Origin: an uncultured Bacteroidota bacterium
GTDB taxonomy: Bacteria > Bacteroidota > Bacteroidia > Bacteroidales > P3
Reading direction: 5' to 3'
DNA: 64,000 nt
Assembly (NCBI GenBank): GCA_902790215.1
Contig: CADAQX010000002.1
Coordinates: 124,001-188,000, forward strand
Under the pieces are notes generated by a model. It was not told the origin of the DNA. It searched no databases and was given only the letters and a program-made list of their open reading frames with translations. This document shows, piece by piece, positions 2,345-42,773 of this stretch. Each line of letters starts with the position of its first letter. Positions within the stretch are counted from its first letter, which is position 1. Position numbers and translations under genes: made by a program.

Positions 2345-2413
2345 CAAAGATACGACTTTTTTACCGATTCAAGAGAGATTTTTTACTTATATGAGAAAAA
2401 AGTTGTATCTTTG
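2345..2413. promoter_or_regulatory. Divergent promoter pair (YdeI-like gene and leader RNA)
   Basis: The Bacteroidota -7 box TAnnTTTG is present on both strands: CAAAGATA at 2345-2352 (TATCTTTG on the minus strand) and TATCTTTG at 2406-2413 on the plus strand. The region between is almost pure A/T. Nearly the same segment is repeated at 5602-5669. Confidence 0.75.
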
Positions 2414-2715
2414 CAGTCGCTTACATGAGTAAAGTAAGCGGTAAGCAAGAAAAGCATTGCTATATTGTCCTTACGTTAAAGTTCGCCAAATTTTAAGAAG
2501 GAGGACGGAGCATTAGTGCTTTCGCTTGGATGTGTATGCTATGTTTTTAGCATATCGTCAGGCGTGAGAGAAGTTCCATATCCAGTTCCTTCAAGGTGTT
2601 TGGCGATACCTAACGTAAACGGACATGAGTACGTAACCTCATGCCTTTTCTTATTGTTTACGTTTAATATACCGTTGGAGGGTCGGGACGATGAAGTTGC
2701 GCACGGCACGAATTA
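2414..2715 (+). ncRNA. Structured leader RNA, copy D
   Basis: About 300 nt between a strong promoter and the first codon of the following operon, with no coding gene. Pairings read from the sequence: a 5' hairpin CGCTTAC/GTAAGCG (2418-2424 with 2434-2440); a collinear three-part long-range helix, GTCC/GGAC (2467-2470 with 2621-2624), TTACGTTA/TAACGTAA (2471-2478 with 2611-2618) and TCGCCAAA/TTTGGCGA (2483-2490 with 2599-2606); an inner hairpin TATGCTA/TAGCATA (2535-2541 with 2548-2554); and GGCGTGAG (2561-2568) with CTCATGCC (2638-2645), which crosses the long helix as a pseudoknot. The 3' end (GTTGCGCACGGCACGAATTA) matches the ends of copies A and C. The class is not one I recognise; a cis-regulatory role is inferred from position. 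Confidence 0.65.
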
Positions 2716-3009
2716 GTGTATGGAGAATTGGTTGAAACATTTCCACAGGAAGCTATGGGAGTTATCAGAATGATGAATCCCGAGTTTACATCTCATGATT
2801 TTATTAGAACCTATATCATGCGTTATACCAGTTCATATCTTTTTGGCCTATATGAATATCATGATGTTCAAGAGCTTCATGCAGTAATAGGCAAATGGCT
2901 GTCAAATCATGCAGAAGATAATGATATTAGAATTCGCTATGTTGAGCATCGTGATAGTATGAATATTTTTGGTAAGCTTGACAAAATAGCAGTTTGGCAG
3001 AAGCTATAG
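2716..3009 (+). CDS. Hypothetical protein, first gene of zinc-ribbon operon
   Basis: A 97-residue soluble protein of mixed alpha/beta character that I do not recognise. It has no signal peptide or membrane segment. The start is uncertain: the frame is open only from 2695, with a GTG at 2716 placed exactly where the conserved leader RNA ends, and an in-frame ATG at 2755 (MGVIRMMNPEF) that would give 84 residues. A 17-codon ORF in another frame begins at ATG 2720. The gene is followed after 23 nt by the two zinc-ribbon genes on the same strand, so the leader RNA probably controls all three. Confidence 0.5.
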   Translation: MYGELVETFPQEAMGVIRMMNPEFTSHDFIRTYIMRYTSSYLFGLYEYHDVQELHAVIGKWLSNHAEDNDIRIRYVEHRDSMNIFGKLDKIAVWQKL

Positions 3010-5355: not shown

Positions 5356-5437
5356 GGGGAATACGATGCAAGATGCATGTCTATTGAAAAAATGCGTATT
5401 GTTGCAATAATTATCAGTAGAATATGTAAGAGGTATG
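5356..5437. repeat. Direct repeat, right copy (orphan ATPase promoter)
   Basis: A decayed copy of 3983-4069. The -7 box has become TATTGTTG and the start region reads ATGTAAGAGG, giving an immediate stop. It is fused at about 5438 to the 5' fragment of a YdeI-like gene on the opposite strand. Confidence 0.75.
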
Positions 5438-5570
5438 ATAGAGCATTAGACATAGGGGTTTTGCCCCGATGAGTAGCCATCCAGCAGTGATGCGCTGTAG
5501 AGTGGTTCTCCTCCAGCCACTGACGTAGCTGAGTACGGTCACTGTATTCCAAAAGAATGTCAATCTCCAT
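5438..5570 (-). pseudogene. YdeI-like gene, 5' fragment
   Basis: Reading on the minus strand from 5570, the first 45 or so codons (MEIDILLEYSDRTQLRQW, then EENHSTAHHCWMA and HRGKTPMSNALSYL) closely match the start of the YdeI-like gene at 1966-2313. The similarity ends near 5440, where the orphan ATPase promoter copy begins; the frame then runs into unrelated sequence. The fragment keeps its promoter box (CAAAAATA, 5602-5609) and could still be transcribed. Confidence 0.8.
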
Positions 5571-5601
5571 TATTGGCGGGATTCAATTTCAAAATATGCT
5601 G

Positions 5602-5669
5602 CAAAAATACAACTTTTTGCCGATATGAGAGAGATTTTTTACTTATTTGAGAAAAAAGTCGTATCTTTG
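5602..5669. promoter_or_regulatory. Divergent promoter pair, second copy
   Basis: CAAAAATA at 5602-5609 (TATTTTTG on minus) faces the YdeI fragment and TATCTTTG at 5662-5669 faces leader RNA copy A. The intervening sequence, including GAGAGATTTTTTACTTAT and TGAGAAAAAAGT, is a near copy of 2345-2413. Confidence 0.75.
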
Positions 5670-5950
5670 CAATTGGTTTGAGAGAAATATCTCATGCCGA
5701 AAGATTTTTTAATAGAAGCGTTATGCTTCCTTGTACTTGAGAACGTCGGAACTTTTCAAGTGAAATAACCAAGGTTGGATAATGGCTTCACGCGTTAGCG
5801 TGGGCTGTTTTTTACATTTGGTTATTCAGGTTTCCGACGACCTTCAAGTACAATGTGAGACATACAGACCCACGCTTCTTTTGTATAATGCTGTTGCGGG
5901 TCGGACAGCATAGAGGTTGTACCCGACACGTATTAGGGAATTTGTTAATT
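5670..5950 (+). ncRNA. Structured leader RNA, copy A
   Basis: About 280 nt of leader with clear pairings: 5' hairpin TGAGA/TCTCA (5679-5683 with 5690-5694); hairpin GAAGC-GTTAT-GCTTC (5715-5729); a long nested arm made of TTGTACTTGA/TCAAGTACAA (5731-5740 with 5844-5853), CGTCGGA/TCCGACG (5744-5750 with 5833-5839) and AATAACC/GGTTATT (5764-5770 with 5820-5826); inner hairpin CACGC-GTTA-GCGTG (5789-5802); and ATGCTGT/ACAGCAT (5888-5894 with 5905-5911). AGCGTGGG (5797-5804) is also perfectly complementary to CCCACGCT (5869-5876), which would break the inner hairpin. The end, GTTGTACCCGACACG then TATTAGGG, matches copies C and D. It runs into the start codon at 5951. Confidence 0.7.
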
Positions 5951-7810
5951 ATGAGAAAACTAAAACACATGTTGTTGATCTCTTTTCTTATAGTAATCAG
6001 TTCTCAAACGGTGGCACAGGATATCTATAAATTAGAGACATTATATGAAAAAAAGCGCAAAGAAATTGCGGTCGATGCGGTATATGCTATTATTAATAAT
6101 GACATTCGAATGGCTTTTGGAGTGGCTGCAGGGTTGGCAAGTCTGAAAGAAAGTGAAGATTATAGTGAGTGGAAGGAATTGGAGTTTTATGAAAATATAT
6201 TAGCAGTTAGTTGGGGCGTAATTAATTGGTTAGAACCTGAGACATACAGTGATTTCCGAATGTTCCAGAGGATGGGGCCAATTTGTGAGGAGTATGCTCG
6301 CAAACGTACGGCATTAGAAAAGAAGAAAACACTACTTGACATTGATCGAGAACAAAAACGTAACTATGTGCCACCAATAGGGGCTTTAAGTACGATAATG
6401 ATGAAAACGGGGAGTGATTTTACTAAACAGATGAAGAAGGGTGAATATGAAAAACAGGTACAATTTCGGAAGCGTATTGCTGAAACTGGACCACATATTT
6501 TTGATAGTATAGCCCGTTCTTATTGTATTAATCAAGCATTGTATGGCACAAGCAAGAATGAAAGAACCGACAGGGATAAAATGATAACATTCTATTCGTT
6601 TAGCATTGATCAAGCAATGGATGGCACAAGAATAGGATACGATGTGGAAAGCGAAACTGATACCATATATATGTGGCATCAGAGCGAGAATAAAGTCATT
6701 GCCACCTGTCATATTAGTCCCGAAACAAAACAGAGAATTGCTAATTTAGACAGAACCATTCAGATTGATAGTCTTGAACTCTGTGTAGTGAATGGTGATG
6801 TGCTTCCGTATAAGATGGCGTTGACCACAAACAAGAATGAACAATGGTTGTATTCATTCCATCCATTAGCAAAGAATGCAAAGATAGACACAAATGTTGT
6901 CTTTCCTGTGTACAAGACAGGTATTACAGACACTAATATTCTTCAGGTAATGGGCAATCATGTGTTTGACTATAATAAAATTATGTATCAAAGAAGGCTT
7001 GAACTAAAAAAAGAGCAAGAAAAGATTGCTGCACAAAAGGCAGAGATTGCAGCACAAGAGGCGCGTGAAAAACTTGAAGAGGAACTCACAATTAAACTCA
7101 GCAATATTATATACAAATACAAGGTGAATAATCAAGGTTCTATGGCAGATTATAATTATAACTATTATAGTAGTTTGTCATCTTCGTTTGTAAAAGATGC
7201 ATTTTCTGCAGTTTACTATACATTTGAAGCGACTTTGGACTCAAACATTATTAAAATCAGACAATTGAGTTATAGTGGGGTGAAAGAATATATTAAAGAA
7301 AACCACCTAACTGAAGATGATATAGAAAGAATAGAAAGTCAATTTTTAACTTTTATTTCTCAAGAAGAATCATATAGAAATGATTTAAAAAGATTAACTC
7401 AAGTAATGAAAATATTGGATGGATTGATGGTTGATGCAACTTACAATAGTGGTTCGCCATCACCCATTGGAATAGGATTAATAGATGTTTTGATTTCAGC
7501 AACGTCATATGCCCAATCAACAGCTCCAGCTTCATCTGAATTGTCCAAACTGCAATTGAAAAAGGGAAGGAAGAGTATTTTGATCAATAATGACTATGAT
7601 ACACGCTCATCACTTGAAGTGTTAATAACAGGAATGGATGATTTGAAAAACGGAAAATATACAGCCATGGCTTATTATTTGCTTTCAGAGTTTATAGTTA
7701 ATGAGAATAAAGGTGCTGCAAAGGAATGGGAAAAACGTAAGGACAAATACAGTGATATTGTGGAATTCTATGAACACTATATTTCGGAAGACTATAAACC
7801 AAGAAAATAA
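5951..7810 (+). CDS. Secreted coiled-coil protein of unknown function
   Basis: A 619-residue protein with a clean signal peptide (MRKLKHMLLISFLIVISS, cleavage after TVAQ). I do not recognise its family. The first 340 residues are mixed, with no cysteine-rich or catalytic motif that I can identify; residues about 345-385 form a charged coiled coil rich in K, E, Q and A; the rest is mainly helical. The frame is open further upstream to 5855, but that part lies in the leader RNA, and the ATG at 5951 gives the signal peptide. It is AT-rich like its neighbours. The next gene follows after 16 nt. Confidence 0.75.
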   Translation: MRKLKHMLLISFLIVISSQTVAQDIYKLETLYEKKRKEIAVDAVYAIINNDIRMAFGVAAGLASLKESEDYSEWKELEFYENILAVSWGVINWLEPETYSDFRMFQRMGPICEEYARKRTALEKKKTLLDIDREQKRNYVPPIGALSTIMMKTGSDFTKQMKKGEYEKQVQFRKRIAETGPHIFDSIARSYCINQALYGTSKNERTDRDKMITFYSFSIDQAMDGTRIGYDVESETDTIYMWHQSENKVIATCHISPETKQRIANLDRTIQIDSLELCVVNGDVLPYKMALTTNKNEQWLYSFHPLAKNAKIDTNVVFPVYKTGITDTNILQVMGNHVFDYNKIMYQRRLELKKEQEKIAAQKAEIAAQEAREKLEEELTIKLSNIIYKYKVNNQGSMADYNYNYYSSLSSSFVKDAFSAVYYTFEATLDSNIIKIRQLSYSGVKEYIKENHLTEDDIERIESQFLTFISQEESYRNDLKRLTQVMKILDGLMVDATYNSGSPSPIGIGLIDVLISATSYAQSTAPASSELSKLQLKKGRKSILINNDYDTRSSLEVLITGMDDLKNGKYTAMAYYLLSEFIVNENKGAAKEWEKRKDKYSDIVEFYEHYISEDYKPRK

Positions 7811-16941: not shown

Positions 16942-17010
16942 CAAAAATACGAACTTTTTGCGACATGAGGAAAAATAATTTGGCTGAATGGGAAAAACTT
17001 CGTAATTTTG
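16942..17010. promoter_or_regulatory. Divergent promoter pair (DUF5674 operon and leader RNA B)
   Basis: CAAAAATA at 16942-16949 (minus TATTTTTG) and TAATTTTG at 17003-17010 (plus). As at 2345-2413 and 5602-5669, a leader RNA copy is born from a divergent promoter. Confidence 0.7.
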
Positions 17011-17189
17011 CAACCGATTTCAACGATGAAATCACGAAGCGTTATGCTCATTCTGCGGATAGGAACCTAGGAAATTCCATAGCATTGCAGAATATGTGTA
17101 ATAGCTGCGCTGTTCAGCGTGGGCTAACTCCATCTTCTCAATGCAAGGTCGGGGTGCGGGAGAGCACAAAATTTAGAGTACATAATAAA
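17011..17189 (+). ncRNA. Structured leader RNA, shorter copy B
   Basis: About 180 nt. It opens with CGATTTC, a short loop and GAAATC as copy C does, then GAAGCGTTATGCT (hairpin AGC-GTTAT-GCT). Other pairings: ATTCTGC/GCAGAAT (17050-17056 with 17087-17093) and the central hairpin GCGCT-GTTC-AGCGT within TAGC/GCTA. The blocks ATTGCAG-ATA-GTGT, TTCAGCGTGG-CT and TCTTCTCAAT match copy C. The downstream strand that pairs with AGCGTGG in the other copies is absent, so this copy lacks the proposed switch. It leads into the start codon at 17190. Confidence 0.55.
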
Positions 17190-17753
17190 ATGAGAAAGAT
17201 TACCATTCTTTTGACAGCAGTTATTCTTTCGATGACTGTAAATGCACAAAACACCGGATATGAGAAATCAGTTTCATTCTTCGGAAACTTCGGTGTAGGG
17301 AAATATGCCAATTCAACATATGGTTTTAACATGGTGAATGGGTATAGATTTAATCAGTATTTCTACTTGGGTTTTGGTGTTGGTATAGGATACTCTTCAG
17401 AACTTAGTTCCGTGACAGAGTATGTGTACCTTGGTACAAAAGAGCGTCGACAAGACAGGTACCCCATTCCGCTCTACCTGCAGGCAAAGTTTAATTTGAC
17501 CAATGGCGCTGTGAGTCCATTTATTTTAGTTAATGCGGGATACACACTGGACATAAAAGAGTATTTAAAAGATGCACCTGGTTTAATGCTGAACCCTGCT
17601 CTGGGTGTTGAGATTCCTGTGGGTGAGAAACAGGCAATACTGGTTTCTGCTGGATTTAAACTTCAGCATGGCACAATGTTTGAAAGCGGTGCATATACGC
17701 GTTCATCATTAATGTTTAAATCTATTTCAGCGGAAATCGGTTTCAAGTTTTAA
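17190..17753 (+). CDS. Outer-membrane beta-barrel-like protein
   Basis: A 187-residue secreted protein: MRKITILLTAVILS signal with cleavage after VNAQ, then alternating strands (FFGNFGVGKY, NQYFYLGFGVGIGYSS, IPLYLQAKFNL, VSPFILVNAGYTL) and a terminal aromatic residue in ISAEIGFKF. This fits an eight-strand OmpA/PorT-like barrel of the outer membrane. The open frame extends far upstream, but through the leader RNA; ATG 17190 gives the signal peptide and the ATGAGAAAG start shared by genes behind this leader. No partner genes are evident. Confidence 0.8.
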   Translation: MRKITILLTAVILSMTVNAQNTGYEKSVSFFGNFGVGKYANSTYGFNMVNGYRFNQYFYLGFGVGIGYSSELSSVTEYVYLGTKERRQDRYPIPLYLQAKFNLTNGAVSPFILVNAGYTLDIKEYLKDAPGLMLNPALGVEIPVGEKQAILVSAGFKLQHGTMFESGAYTRSSLMFKSISAEIGFKF

Positions 17754-41744: not shown

Positions 41745-41752
41745 TATTTTTG
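41745..41752 (+). promoter_or_regulatory. Promoter -7 box of leader RNA C
   Basis: TATTTTTG, followed directly by CAAACGATTTC, the first stem strand of the RNA. Confidence 0.7.
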
Positions 41753-42011
41753 CAAACGATTTCGACAGGAAATCTTGAAGCGTTATACGATTTCTGTATG
41801 TGAAAATGTGAGAAGTTTTCTTAGGATTGCAGGATAAGTGTGACGGTTCACGTTTCAGCGTGGACTGCATGCAACTTCTCAATTCGAGGTATTCTCACAA
41901 CCGTCACATAGGAAGTGGTATTCGGTACCACGCTTTCTATTTGTATTACATGCTCAAATTGGTACTATTCGAGCAAAAAAGTTGCACCCGGCACAAATAA
42001 GGGTCTTTAAA
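41753..42011 (+). ncRNA. Structured leader RNA, copy C
   Basis: About 260 nt. 5' hairpin GATTTC/GAAATC (about 41758-41774), then GAAGCGTTATACG. TGTGACGGTT (41839-41848) pairs perfectly with AACCGTCACA (41899-41908) around hairpin CACG/CGTG (41849-41852 with 41859-41862). GAGAAGTT (41810-41817) is complementary to AACTTCTC (41873-41880), crossing that helix. AGCGTGG (41857-41863) is complementary to CCACGCT (41928-41934), whose strand can alternatively fold into GTGGTA/TACCAC (41915-41931). TGCTC/GAGCA (41951-41955 with 41971-41975) precedes GTTGCACCCGGCAC and TAAGGG, the end shared with copies A and D. The gene at 42012 follows at once. Confidence 0.7.
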
Positions 42012-42773
42012 ATGAGGAAAATATTGTCTTTCATTATGTTTGTTGTAATGGGCTTGATGTATTGCACTGCCCAAATCTCCCCAATCACAACCCTCCCGCG
42101 GTATGTATATTATTCAGGTTTAGATGCAAATAAATATTATCCGATGATTCCTGACGGGAATGTGATTTATATATACAACTGGAATGGCTCCTTATATAAA
42201 ACTGTTTCGGTTGTCCCCCCATCAGGATACTCTGTTTATGCTATTTCATGCTTGAGCAAAAAGTTTATAAACAATGATGATAAGTTGGAAATGTGTGTTA
42301 CTTTAATGGCAACATCTCATTCAGGAGATAATTTAAATGAAAAGATGTGGTTAATAAATGAAGATGGAACTAAATTGAACGATTTTGGAAATGGGTATTC
42401 ATTTTCTGCATCATTTGCCTCATACAATGGAGAAACACATCTCACTATATTAAAAACCACTATTAATCCCACAGCATACTCAACAACAATTTATCGCTGT
42501 AGTGGATCTGGTGTTGTTAACATAGCCCAACCAGATGAAAATGTAATAGGTTTAGCTTATCCCAATCCTGCAATTAATGTAATTACATTGCCTTATCAAC
42601 TAAAGGATAAATTGACATCACATATACATATCTACAATGAGAGTGGACATCTTGTCTCAACCATACCTGTCGGAGCACATTTCAATGAAATAAAAGTAGA
42701 TGTGTCAAGTTATTCCTCAGGGATTTACTTTTATGAATGTGAAGGGAAAACAAATAGTTTTATTGTTCAATAA
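42012..42773 (+). CDS. Small secreted protein with T9SS sorting tail
   Basis: A 253-residue secreted protein: signal MRKILSFIMFVVMGLMY ending CTAQ, a strand-rich middle with no known domain, and a C-terminal T9SS type-A signal (AYPNPAINVITLP, then IYNESGHLVSTIPV and GIYFYECEGKTNSFIVQ). It should be delivered to the cell surface through the type IX system. ATG 42012 is chosen over 41982, which lies inside the leader RNA. Coding is AT-rich compared with valS upstream. No partner is recognised. Confidence 0.8.
   Translation: MRKILSFIMFVVMGLMYCTAQISPITTLPRYVYYSGLDANKYYPMIPDGNVIYIYNWNGSLYKTVSVVPPSGYSVYAISCLSKKFINNDDKLEMCVTLMATSHSGDNLNEKMWLINEDGTKLNDFGNGYSFSASFASYNGETHLTILKTTINPTAYSTTIYRCSGSGVVNIAQPDENVIGLAYPNPAINVITLPYQLKDKLTSHIHIYNESGHLVSTIPVGAHFNEIKVDVSSYSSGIYFYECEGKTNSFIVQ

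Follow-up and report, generated by a model that had tools for sequence, protein, structure and literature searches.

Four long segments in a 64,000-nt stretch of DNA from an uncultured Bacteroidota bacterium (assembly GCA_902790215.1, contig CADAQX010000002.1, positions 124,001–188,000; the whole stretch is referred to here as the window) raise two questions: (i) do they belong to one family of structured leader RNAs and (ii) what would such leaders do for the genes that follow them. We designate the segments A (2414–2715), B (5670–5950), C (17011–17189) and D (41753–42011); the initial annotation used the letters A, C and D for the copies at 5670, 41753 and 2414, respectively, as its example stems show. 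Comparison with homologous loci establishes an RNA family in 5′ untranslated regions (UTRs) that is absent from Rfam. On the second question, we think it somewhat likelier than its opposite that these RNAs form a modular family of 5′ leaders in the Bacteroidia, switch-like, acting in cis on the gene behind and reassorted by recombination.

A family of long leaders in several types

Reading the sequences, we find at all four places a TAnnTTTG box that is immediately followed by a hairpin and then by a structured segment. The shared layout described in the initial annotation therefore stands, but the four copies are not one uniform set. Three of them (A, B and D) are intact, whereas C derives from an internal deletion; two sequence types with a common architecture are represented: type I (B, C and D) and type IV (A). 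A single alignment of all four copies was rejected as proof because the types differ and a MAFFT alignment (A1) misplaces A and C. Folding energies are lower than those of all 200 shuffled sequences for A, B and D (z = −4.7 for 2418–2715, −6.9 for 5673–5945 and −4.6 for 41756–42008). Taken alone, copy C (17014–17185) is indistinguishable from chance by energy (z = −1.6, with 16 of 200 shuffles equally good). Apart from a gap of ∼73 nt in the 3′ half, it can be aligned with other type I copies, and the type I covariance model R1, which was trained without it, gives it 46.9 bits (E = 3.6e-10). The scores of B, D and A (117.8, 144 and 221.9 bits) are not independent, since B and D trained R1 and A trained the type IV model R3.

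A 3′ block, GTTGNRCNCGRCAC..ATTAGGG, was found close to the start codon at 5916, 41981 and 2696, the three copies for which it had been claimed, and was not found in 17011–17189 (copy C). Several sequence types of long leader became apparent on reading the sequences upstream of such blocks in other genomes. Homologous loci are given L numbers, and alignments are labeled A1–A6. Type I is represented by A2 (17 sequences including B and D, aligned with MAFFT and not fitted to structure) and by A3 (101 copies fitted to the model), type II by A4 (13 sequences; model R2) and type IV by A6 (5 sequences including A). Type III leaders, recognized by eye, are L007, L024, L031 and L148, the first of which is in the window's own genome.

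The search of Bacteroidales genomes with covariance models, which had been proposed as a check, returned many homologues. R1 matches 112 of 119 sampled genomes of the window's genus, R2 93 and R3 97. In the order, R1 matches 69 of 247 genomes (54 of 174 genera), and in the class 27 of 198 genomes, 23 of them from other orders. A pattern search with the block had matched 62 genomes out of 148, every one from the window's genus (a reverse-read control gave 1 match); the restriction to one genus that this implied is rejected, as the order- and class-level matches show a far wider spread. Two antisense-strand matches (L195 and L228) were dropped from the order-level set, reducing it from 59 to 57. 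Copy counts per genome in the genus, order and class samples are lower bounds, with 11–23 candidates scored in each genome; in four genomes chosen for high counts, with 150 candidates scored, type I matches at E 0.01 number 20, 18, 14 and 12. The window's own genome has 7 matches to R1, 3 to R2 and 3 to R3 at E 0.01 or better, at 13 different places, and 10 are below 1e-7, including four to R1 (D, B, C and C8:166975).

The TAnnTTTG box precedes 98 of the 101 type I cores, at 29–33 nt in 75 cases and at 40–59 nt in 23, compared with 7.7 in all and 2.0 at 29–59 nt for shuffled flanks. An open reading frame (ORF) of at least 40 aa lies behind 95 of the 101 copies, and 52 of the 57 order-level copies have one of that length within 150 nt behind, in agreement with the frequent location ahead of starts that had been expected. 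Type I leaders are thus placed between a promoter box and a start codon, the transcription start itself being predicted from the box. Passages of PMC7366714 give a median 5′ UTR length of 32 nt for Bacteroides thetaiotaomicron, with 13.5% above 100 nt; leaders of ∼230–330 nt are exceptional by this measure.

Covariation and a loop–loop helix

The compensatory changes that the initial annotation saw between copies are strongly supported in homologues from elsewhere, where double-changed cells far exceed those in shuffled alignments. The RNAalifold consensus of A2 contains 43 pairs with 94.1% of cells paired, compared with 81.1% after shuffling and at most 48.0% for slid versions; 24 pairs are changed on both sides (shuffled, 16.3), with 104 double-changed cells (shuffled, 33). 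For A3, 96.7% of cells are paired (shuffled, 84.1%; slides, at most 51.4%) and 601 cells are double-changed (shuffled, 186). Type IV, with 31 copies, gives 97.0% paired, slides of at most 46.9% and 125 double-changed cells against 31.

Individual helices were examined by permuting their 3′ strands among the 48 copies, of 100, that are <85% identical, a weak second match in L266 having been dropped. The outer helix is paired at 97.7% versus 66.9% with permuted strands, the inner helix at 99.7% versus 86.2% and the middle helix at 95.3% versus 55.4%. An unguided scan of all column pairs recovered all three helices. The same scan indicates an additional helix near columns 26–27 with 68–69 that crosses the other three, and the fold is therefore pseudoknotted or refolding.

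The inner helix is a pairing between two hairpin loops. The 5′ hairpin reads GRAA..TTYC, with its pair 37–52 occurring as AU (46), GC (37) or GU (11), and the 3′ hairpin has GGT/ACC, GGC/GCC or GGG/CCC. The loops are perfectly complementary over at least 7 nt in 202 of the 219 copies examined, which comprise types I, II and IV and the order-level set; cross-type chimeras give 2.6 and shuffled sequences 0.6. The 210 copies with at least 6 nt have 51 different helix strings, and 34 of these do not include any other of the strings. Class-level copies, none of which entered a model, behave similarly: 19 of 20 have a complement of at least 6 nt (shuffled, 0.55), with 7 nt in L403.

A strand with two competing partners

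The distal strand of the type I core, CCACGCTTC, can pair with the 5′ strand GAAGCG or with the central arm AGCGTGG, but not with both at once. For 45 order-level copies, z is −4.0 for pairing with the 5′ strand and −4.6 for pairing with the central arm; for 120 copies of types I, IV and order level, the values are −9.4 and −7.2. None of 3000 permutations was as good in any of these four cases. Within type I alone (46 copies, two of the 48 having been dropped because they lack CACG), 4 and 19 of 5000 permutations, respectively, were as good. A double change in the central pairing is seen in L267, where TCACGC lies opposite AGCGTGA. In type I, the letters just ahead of the distal strand pair with the hairpin region that precedes the block (0 of 5000 permutations as good), and the outer 5′ strand also has two partners.

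Because the distal strand covaries with mutually exclusive partners and with the pre-block region, we propose a conformational switch. One strand covarying with two competing partners suggests such a switch, and strand exchange is the best-supported mechanism, albeit unproven. The competing pairings also bear on a simpler explanation, that the leader is a constitutive structural 5′ UTR whose fold guards the mRNA from decay or recruits the ribosome or an RNA-binding protein, with no switching. A hairpin right at the presumed 5′ end (by eye) and the occurrence of leaders ahead of functionally unrelated genes would fit this explanation, but a static stabilizer needs neither the conserved alternative pairings of the distal strand nor those of the outer 5′ strand, and we regard it as unlikely.

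Small modules next to the start codon

With three mismatches allowed, the 3′ block follows 35 of the 101 type I cores. Many blocks occur without a long leader, from which we conclude that the block is an independent module; its description as a component of the leader did not hold, and it is rejected as part of the RNA. An ORF of at least 40 aa follows 153 of the 166 distinct block records with its ATG 7–13 nt behind the block, the distance being exactly 8 nt in 86 (first 20 nt searched). Block positions 8 and 22 covary (C-G 183, A-T 3, T-A 2 and C-A 1 in 189 records), although most of the records were obtained with patterns in which the majority of positions were fixed, such that the pair counts reflect only the mismatches that were allowed. 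Across species genomes, the block was found in at least 118 stretches; among the matches listed, nearly all are from Bacteroidales or Bacteroidia metagenome genomes, a few are from named isolates, e.g. Prevotella jejuni and Prevotella pectinovora, and three are from genomes titled Syntrophobacterales, Lachnospiraceae and Erysipelotrichaceae.

The 23-nt block GTTGYRCCCGRCACNNATNAGGG without a long leader, also within apparent operons, lies mostly 7–10 nt ahead of an ATG (L013:763, L015:1501, L033, L039, L097, L140 and others). The leaderless form would constitute a separate translation-start module, to which we assign no role. We also note very small proteins of 44–45 aa (MY.LNFPNG.SQ.Y...) behind blocks in several genomes (L048, L081, L099 and L110).

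A second small module, CTGANGAGCC.ACAG....GGC, is present in about ten other type I copies, mostly 6–10 nt ahead of the ATG. It takes the place of the block in L168:1707, L271, L277, L281, L299, L315, L319 and L320, where the spacing CTGANGAGCC.ACAG.....GGC also occurs, and it could form a small H-type pseudoknot. The remaining type I copies mostly have an A-rich spacer before the start (by eye). At the other end of the leader, a tRNA-Phe gene (identified with ARAGORN) is preceded by the promoter box and a similar 5′ hairpin in L005:1501–1623 (C27 of the window's own genome), which implies that the 5′ hairpin is a module of other transcripts too.

Apparent exchange of leaders and the genes behind them

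Near-identical leaders stand ahead of unrelated genes. L175, L177 and L251 share one core sequence, and L252 has a core 99% identical to it; the four lie in four genomes, ahead of four genes that do not cluster together. L167 and L168 have identical cores and different 3′ modules. Between L175 and L251 there is 1 difference in the 130 positions upstream of the core (17 in 300) and none within it, and the sequences then part behind the core. Homologous genes with only 42–55% protein identity can have leaders that are 92–97% identical (L183/L188, L254/L263, L191/L265 and L173/L181), whereas the leaders of other homologous gene pairs are only 60–70% identical. Within the window, the sequences flanking A and B are 84% identical (2173–2415 versus 5430–5671), and the local alignment ends at the start of the leader, although the leader types differ. 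Based on the leaders shared by unrelated genes and on the A and B flanks, recombination seems to act on promoters, leaders and genes as whole units. The two flanking segments represent a duplicated promoter flank, in the second copy of which the divergent gene at 1966–2313 is present in truncated form.

These observations, together with the 12–20 matches in the four high-count genomes, would also fit a leader that is mainly a recombination platform or mobile repeat, behind whose fixed promoter genes are exchanged and whose fold aids mobility in the manner of structured single-stranded recombination sites. We consider this rather improbable. The distances to the promoter and to the start codon are kept, which mobility does not require, and homologous recombination in any repeated leader would give the same exchange. 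Neither a transposase nor an integrase is among the 25 of 36 Pfam families inspected for 84 downstream proteins, although none was searched for around the copies.

The genes behind the leaders have little in common. Pfam was run on 84 of the 95 proteins downstream of type I copies (short ones and near-duplicates were left out) and revealed no shared family; the commonest, a zinc ribbon, occurs in 4. Judged by a simple pattern with no control, 58 of the 95 proteins begin with a hydrophobic or lipobox-like stretch. At class level, 20 loci were looked at and 10 of these scanned with Pfam. In other orders of the class, the RNA lies directly ahead of type II/III methyltransferase genes in L398, L401, L404 and L405, and parts of TonB receptors begin 220–270 nt behind the core in L392–L394. 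L398 adjoins what we take to be a DUF1016-like gene.

A metabolite-sensing riboswitch of a new class would likewise present a complex pseudoknotted fold with alternative pairings ahead of start codons. It would also be expected to serve a common pathway, and none is evident among the downstream genes; across the leader types, moreover, only short motifs are in common (by eye). We find this explanation improbable, and still more so that the core is released as a separate trans-acting RNA to which the downstream gene is secondary. The U-rich stretch after the distal strand, strong in several order-level copies, would fit such release, but the terminator-like hairpin lacks covariation support in type I, and conserved elements run on toward the start codon (the pairing of the distal strand with the pre-block region and the block at a fixed distance).

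Relation to known RNAs

The Rfam 15 covariance models give no match at the gathering threshold in the whole 64,000-nt window or in 20 loci with leaders and blocks, and with relaxed limits only chance matches for copies B and D, consistent with the earlier statement that no named class has this plan. The leaders resemble the riboswitches and cis-regulatory leaders of Rfam in being structured 5′ UTRs with mutually exclusive pairings ahead of a start codon; they differ in having no gathering-threshold match and many copies per genome ahead of unrelated genes. The kissing-loop aptamers of purine and corrinoid riboswitches have two hairpins joined by loop–loop pairing within a closed domain. The new family shares this arrangement, but its loop–loop helix is 6–10 nt in 210 of 219 copies and varies among the 51 strings noted above. 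As for OMEGA and HEARO RNAs, no IscB or TnpB is present among the same 25 of 36 Pfam families, a comparison that involved no dedicated search. The block reads GTTGYRC and does not fit the RRR of the integron attC consensus, which we take to be GTTRRRY; an integrase was not searched for.

ROOL, GOLLD and OLE, presumably also Rfam families, gave no match here. They too are large bacterial RNAs with a complex fold and unknown function (PMC12286853), but they are much larger and are not short leaders with an ORF starting right behind. The Bacteroidetes motifs Bacteroid-trp, Bacteroidales-1, Bacteroides-1 and Flavo-1 (Weinberg 2010, passages of PMC2864571) are similar in their comparative discovery and phylum; those with Rfam accessions should be in the searched library and gave no match, whereas Bacteroides-2 and GUCCY-hairpin have no Rfam number in Table 1 of that paper and lie outside the Rfam comparison. 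The leader family is undescribed in the titles and abstract openings covered and in passages of PMC8040213, PMC10994844, PMC7366714, PMC2864571 and PMC11109978, which form part of the basis for its novelty; supplementary candidate tables, such as that of PMC8040213, lie outside this coverage and may hold an unnamed candidate.

Features in the window

The features of the four copies are collected in Table 1. In the 253-aa ORF behind copy D, the C-terminus presumably resembles a type IX secretion sorting domain.

Table 1. Leader elements and adjoining ORFs of copies A–D
Feature	Position	Strand	Basis or description
Promoter box TATCTTTG, copy A	2406..2413	+	sequence read
5′-terminal hairpin, copy A	2418..2440	+	sequence read, folding
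Type IV core, copy A	2443..2650	+	outer helix TTACGTTA/TAACGTAA, loop–loop helix TTCGCCAAA/TTTGGCGA, central GGCGTGAG, distal CTCATGCC
Hairpin preceding block, copy A	2672..2686	+	by eye
3′ block, copy A	2696..2718	+	CAC..GTG replaces CCC..GGG
Promoter box, copy B	5662..5669	+	sequence read
5′-terminal hairpin, copy B	5673..5700	+	sequence read, folding
Type I core, copy B	5713..5881	+	alignment, model R1
Hairpin preceding block, copy B	5888..5911	+	loop GCGGGTCGG; sequence read, folding, alignment
3′ block, copy B	5916..5938	+	pattern search
ORF after copy B	5951..7810	+	619 aa, signal-peptide-like N-terminus, no function assigned
Promoter box, copy C	17003..17010	+	sequence read
Type I deletion derivative, copy C	17034..17189	+	5′ half and central arm kept, ∼73 nt of 3′ half missing, block degenerate
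ORF after copy C	17190..17753	+	187 aa, N-terminus MRKITILLTAVILSMTVNAQ
Promoter box, copy D	41745..41752	+	sequence read
5′-terminal hairpin, copy D	41758..41774	+	sequence read, folding
Type I core, copy D	41775..41939	+	alignment, model R1
Hairpin preceding block, copy D	41951..41975	+	sequence read, alignment
3′ block, copy D	41981..42003	+	pattern search
ORF after copy D	42012..42773	+	253 aa, signal-peptide-like N-terminus

A model for leader function

The leader is most likely a portable cis-acting control module, and control of the gene behind it in cis is likely given its position and structure. In our model, transcription would start at the TAnnTTTG promoter and the mRNA would open with the 5′ hairpin. 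Next would come a core of 165–215 nt with a closing helix, the outer helix, a pair of hairpins, GRAA..TTYC and AGGN..NCCT, with loops predicted to pair through perfect complementarity, the central arm and the distal strand. The hairpin after the core would pair by its loop with the distal strand, and in some genes the 23-nt block or the second small module would lie right ahead of the start codon. Strand exchange by the distal strand could then act as a switch that sets how much of the mRNA is translated. Such a module would act in cis on any gene lying behind it, and recombination, by reassorting leaders and genes, would bring new accessory genes under the same control.

Several observations weigh against this model. 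At the level of the fold, further pair types in type I are not above shuffles (323 of 500 for A3 and 59 of 500 for A2), type I hardly varies in the second loop-closing stem, AGGT/ACCT (900 of 5000 permutations did as well, and there are 4 double changes at one pair), and 7 of the first 13 type II sequences show mismatches in the closing helix (by eye). Phylogeny is not preserved in the permutation and shuffle controls, and own pairs gain an advantage over permuted ones when types are pooled. For the switch, the central-arm pairing hardly varies in type I (98.9% paired versus 98.7% shuffled, 2 double-changed cells), and the two-partner test does not cover type II, whose model stops short of the 5′ strand. 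The simplest transcription switch, a local hairpin with a U-rich tail, finds no support among type I copies (473 of 5000 permutations did as well), and a local terminator hairpin is rejected on this count as the core of the mechanism; helix 8 of type IV, which bears on the question of an attenuator, is 96.8% paired yet nearly invariant. A promoter box lies within 80 nt in only 34 of the 57 order-level copies, pair 9–21 of the block is broken in 8 of 189 records, and the 84 downstream proteins share no function, which argues against a metabolite riboswitch in particular. All of the evidence is comparative.

A more ambitious version of the model is possible, although we doubt it more than we believe it. 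The family would then be a class-wide, undescribed, multi-pseudoknotted RNA switch used as a plug-in, with up to a dozen or more divergent copies per genome and many loop–loop sequences that would prevent cross-pairing. Recombination would reassort it ahead of genes for surface proteins and small membrane proteins, joined in other orders by those for methyltransferases and TonB receptors, and so place new genes under one shared RNA-level signal.

Many Bacteroides-group bacteria thus carry several copies of an intricately folded RNA ahead of unrelated genes, and this RNA is missing from the public RNA library. The compensatory pairs identified here make the fold and the proposed switch directly testable. 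If the model is correct, one RNA class absent from Rfam 15 controls many unannotated accessory genes in the Bacteroidales and reaches other orders of the class. Bacteroides-group bacteria make little use of Shine–Dalgarno signals, and the leaders would offer a handle on how exchanged genes gain regulation in such organisms.
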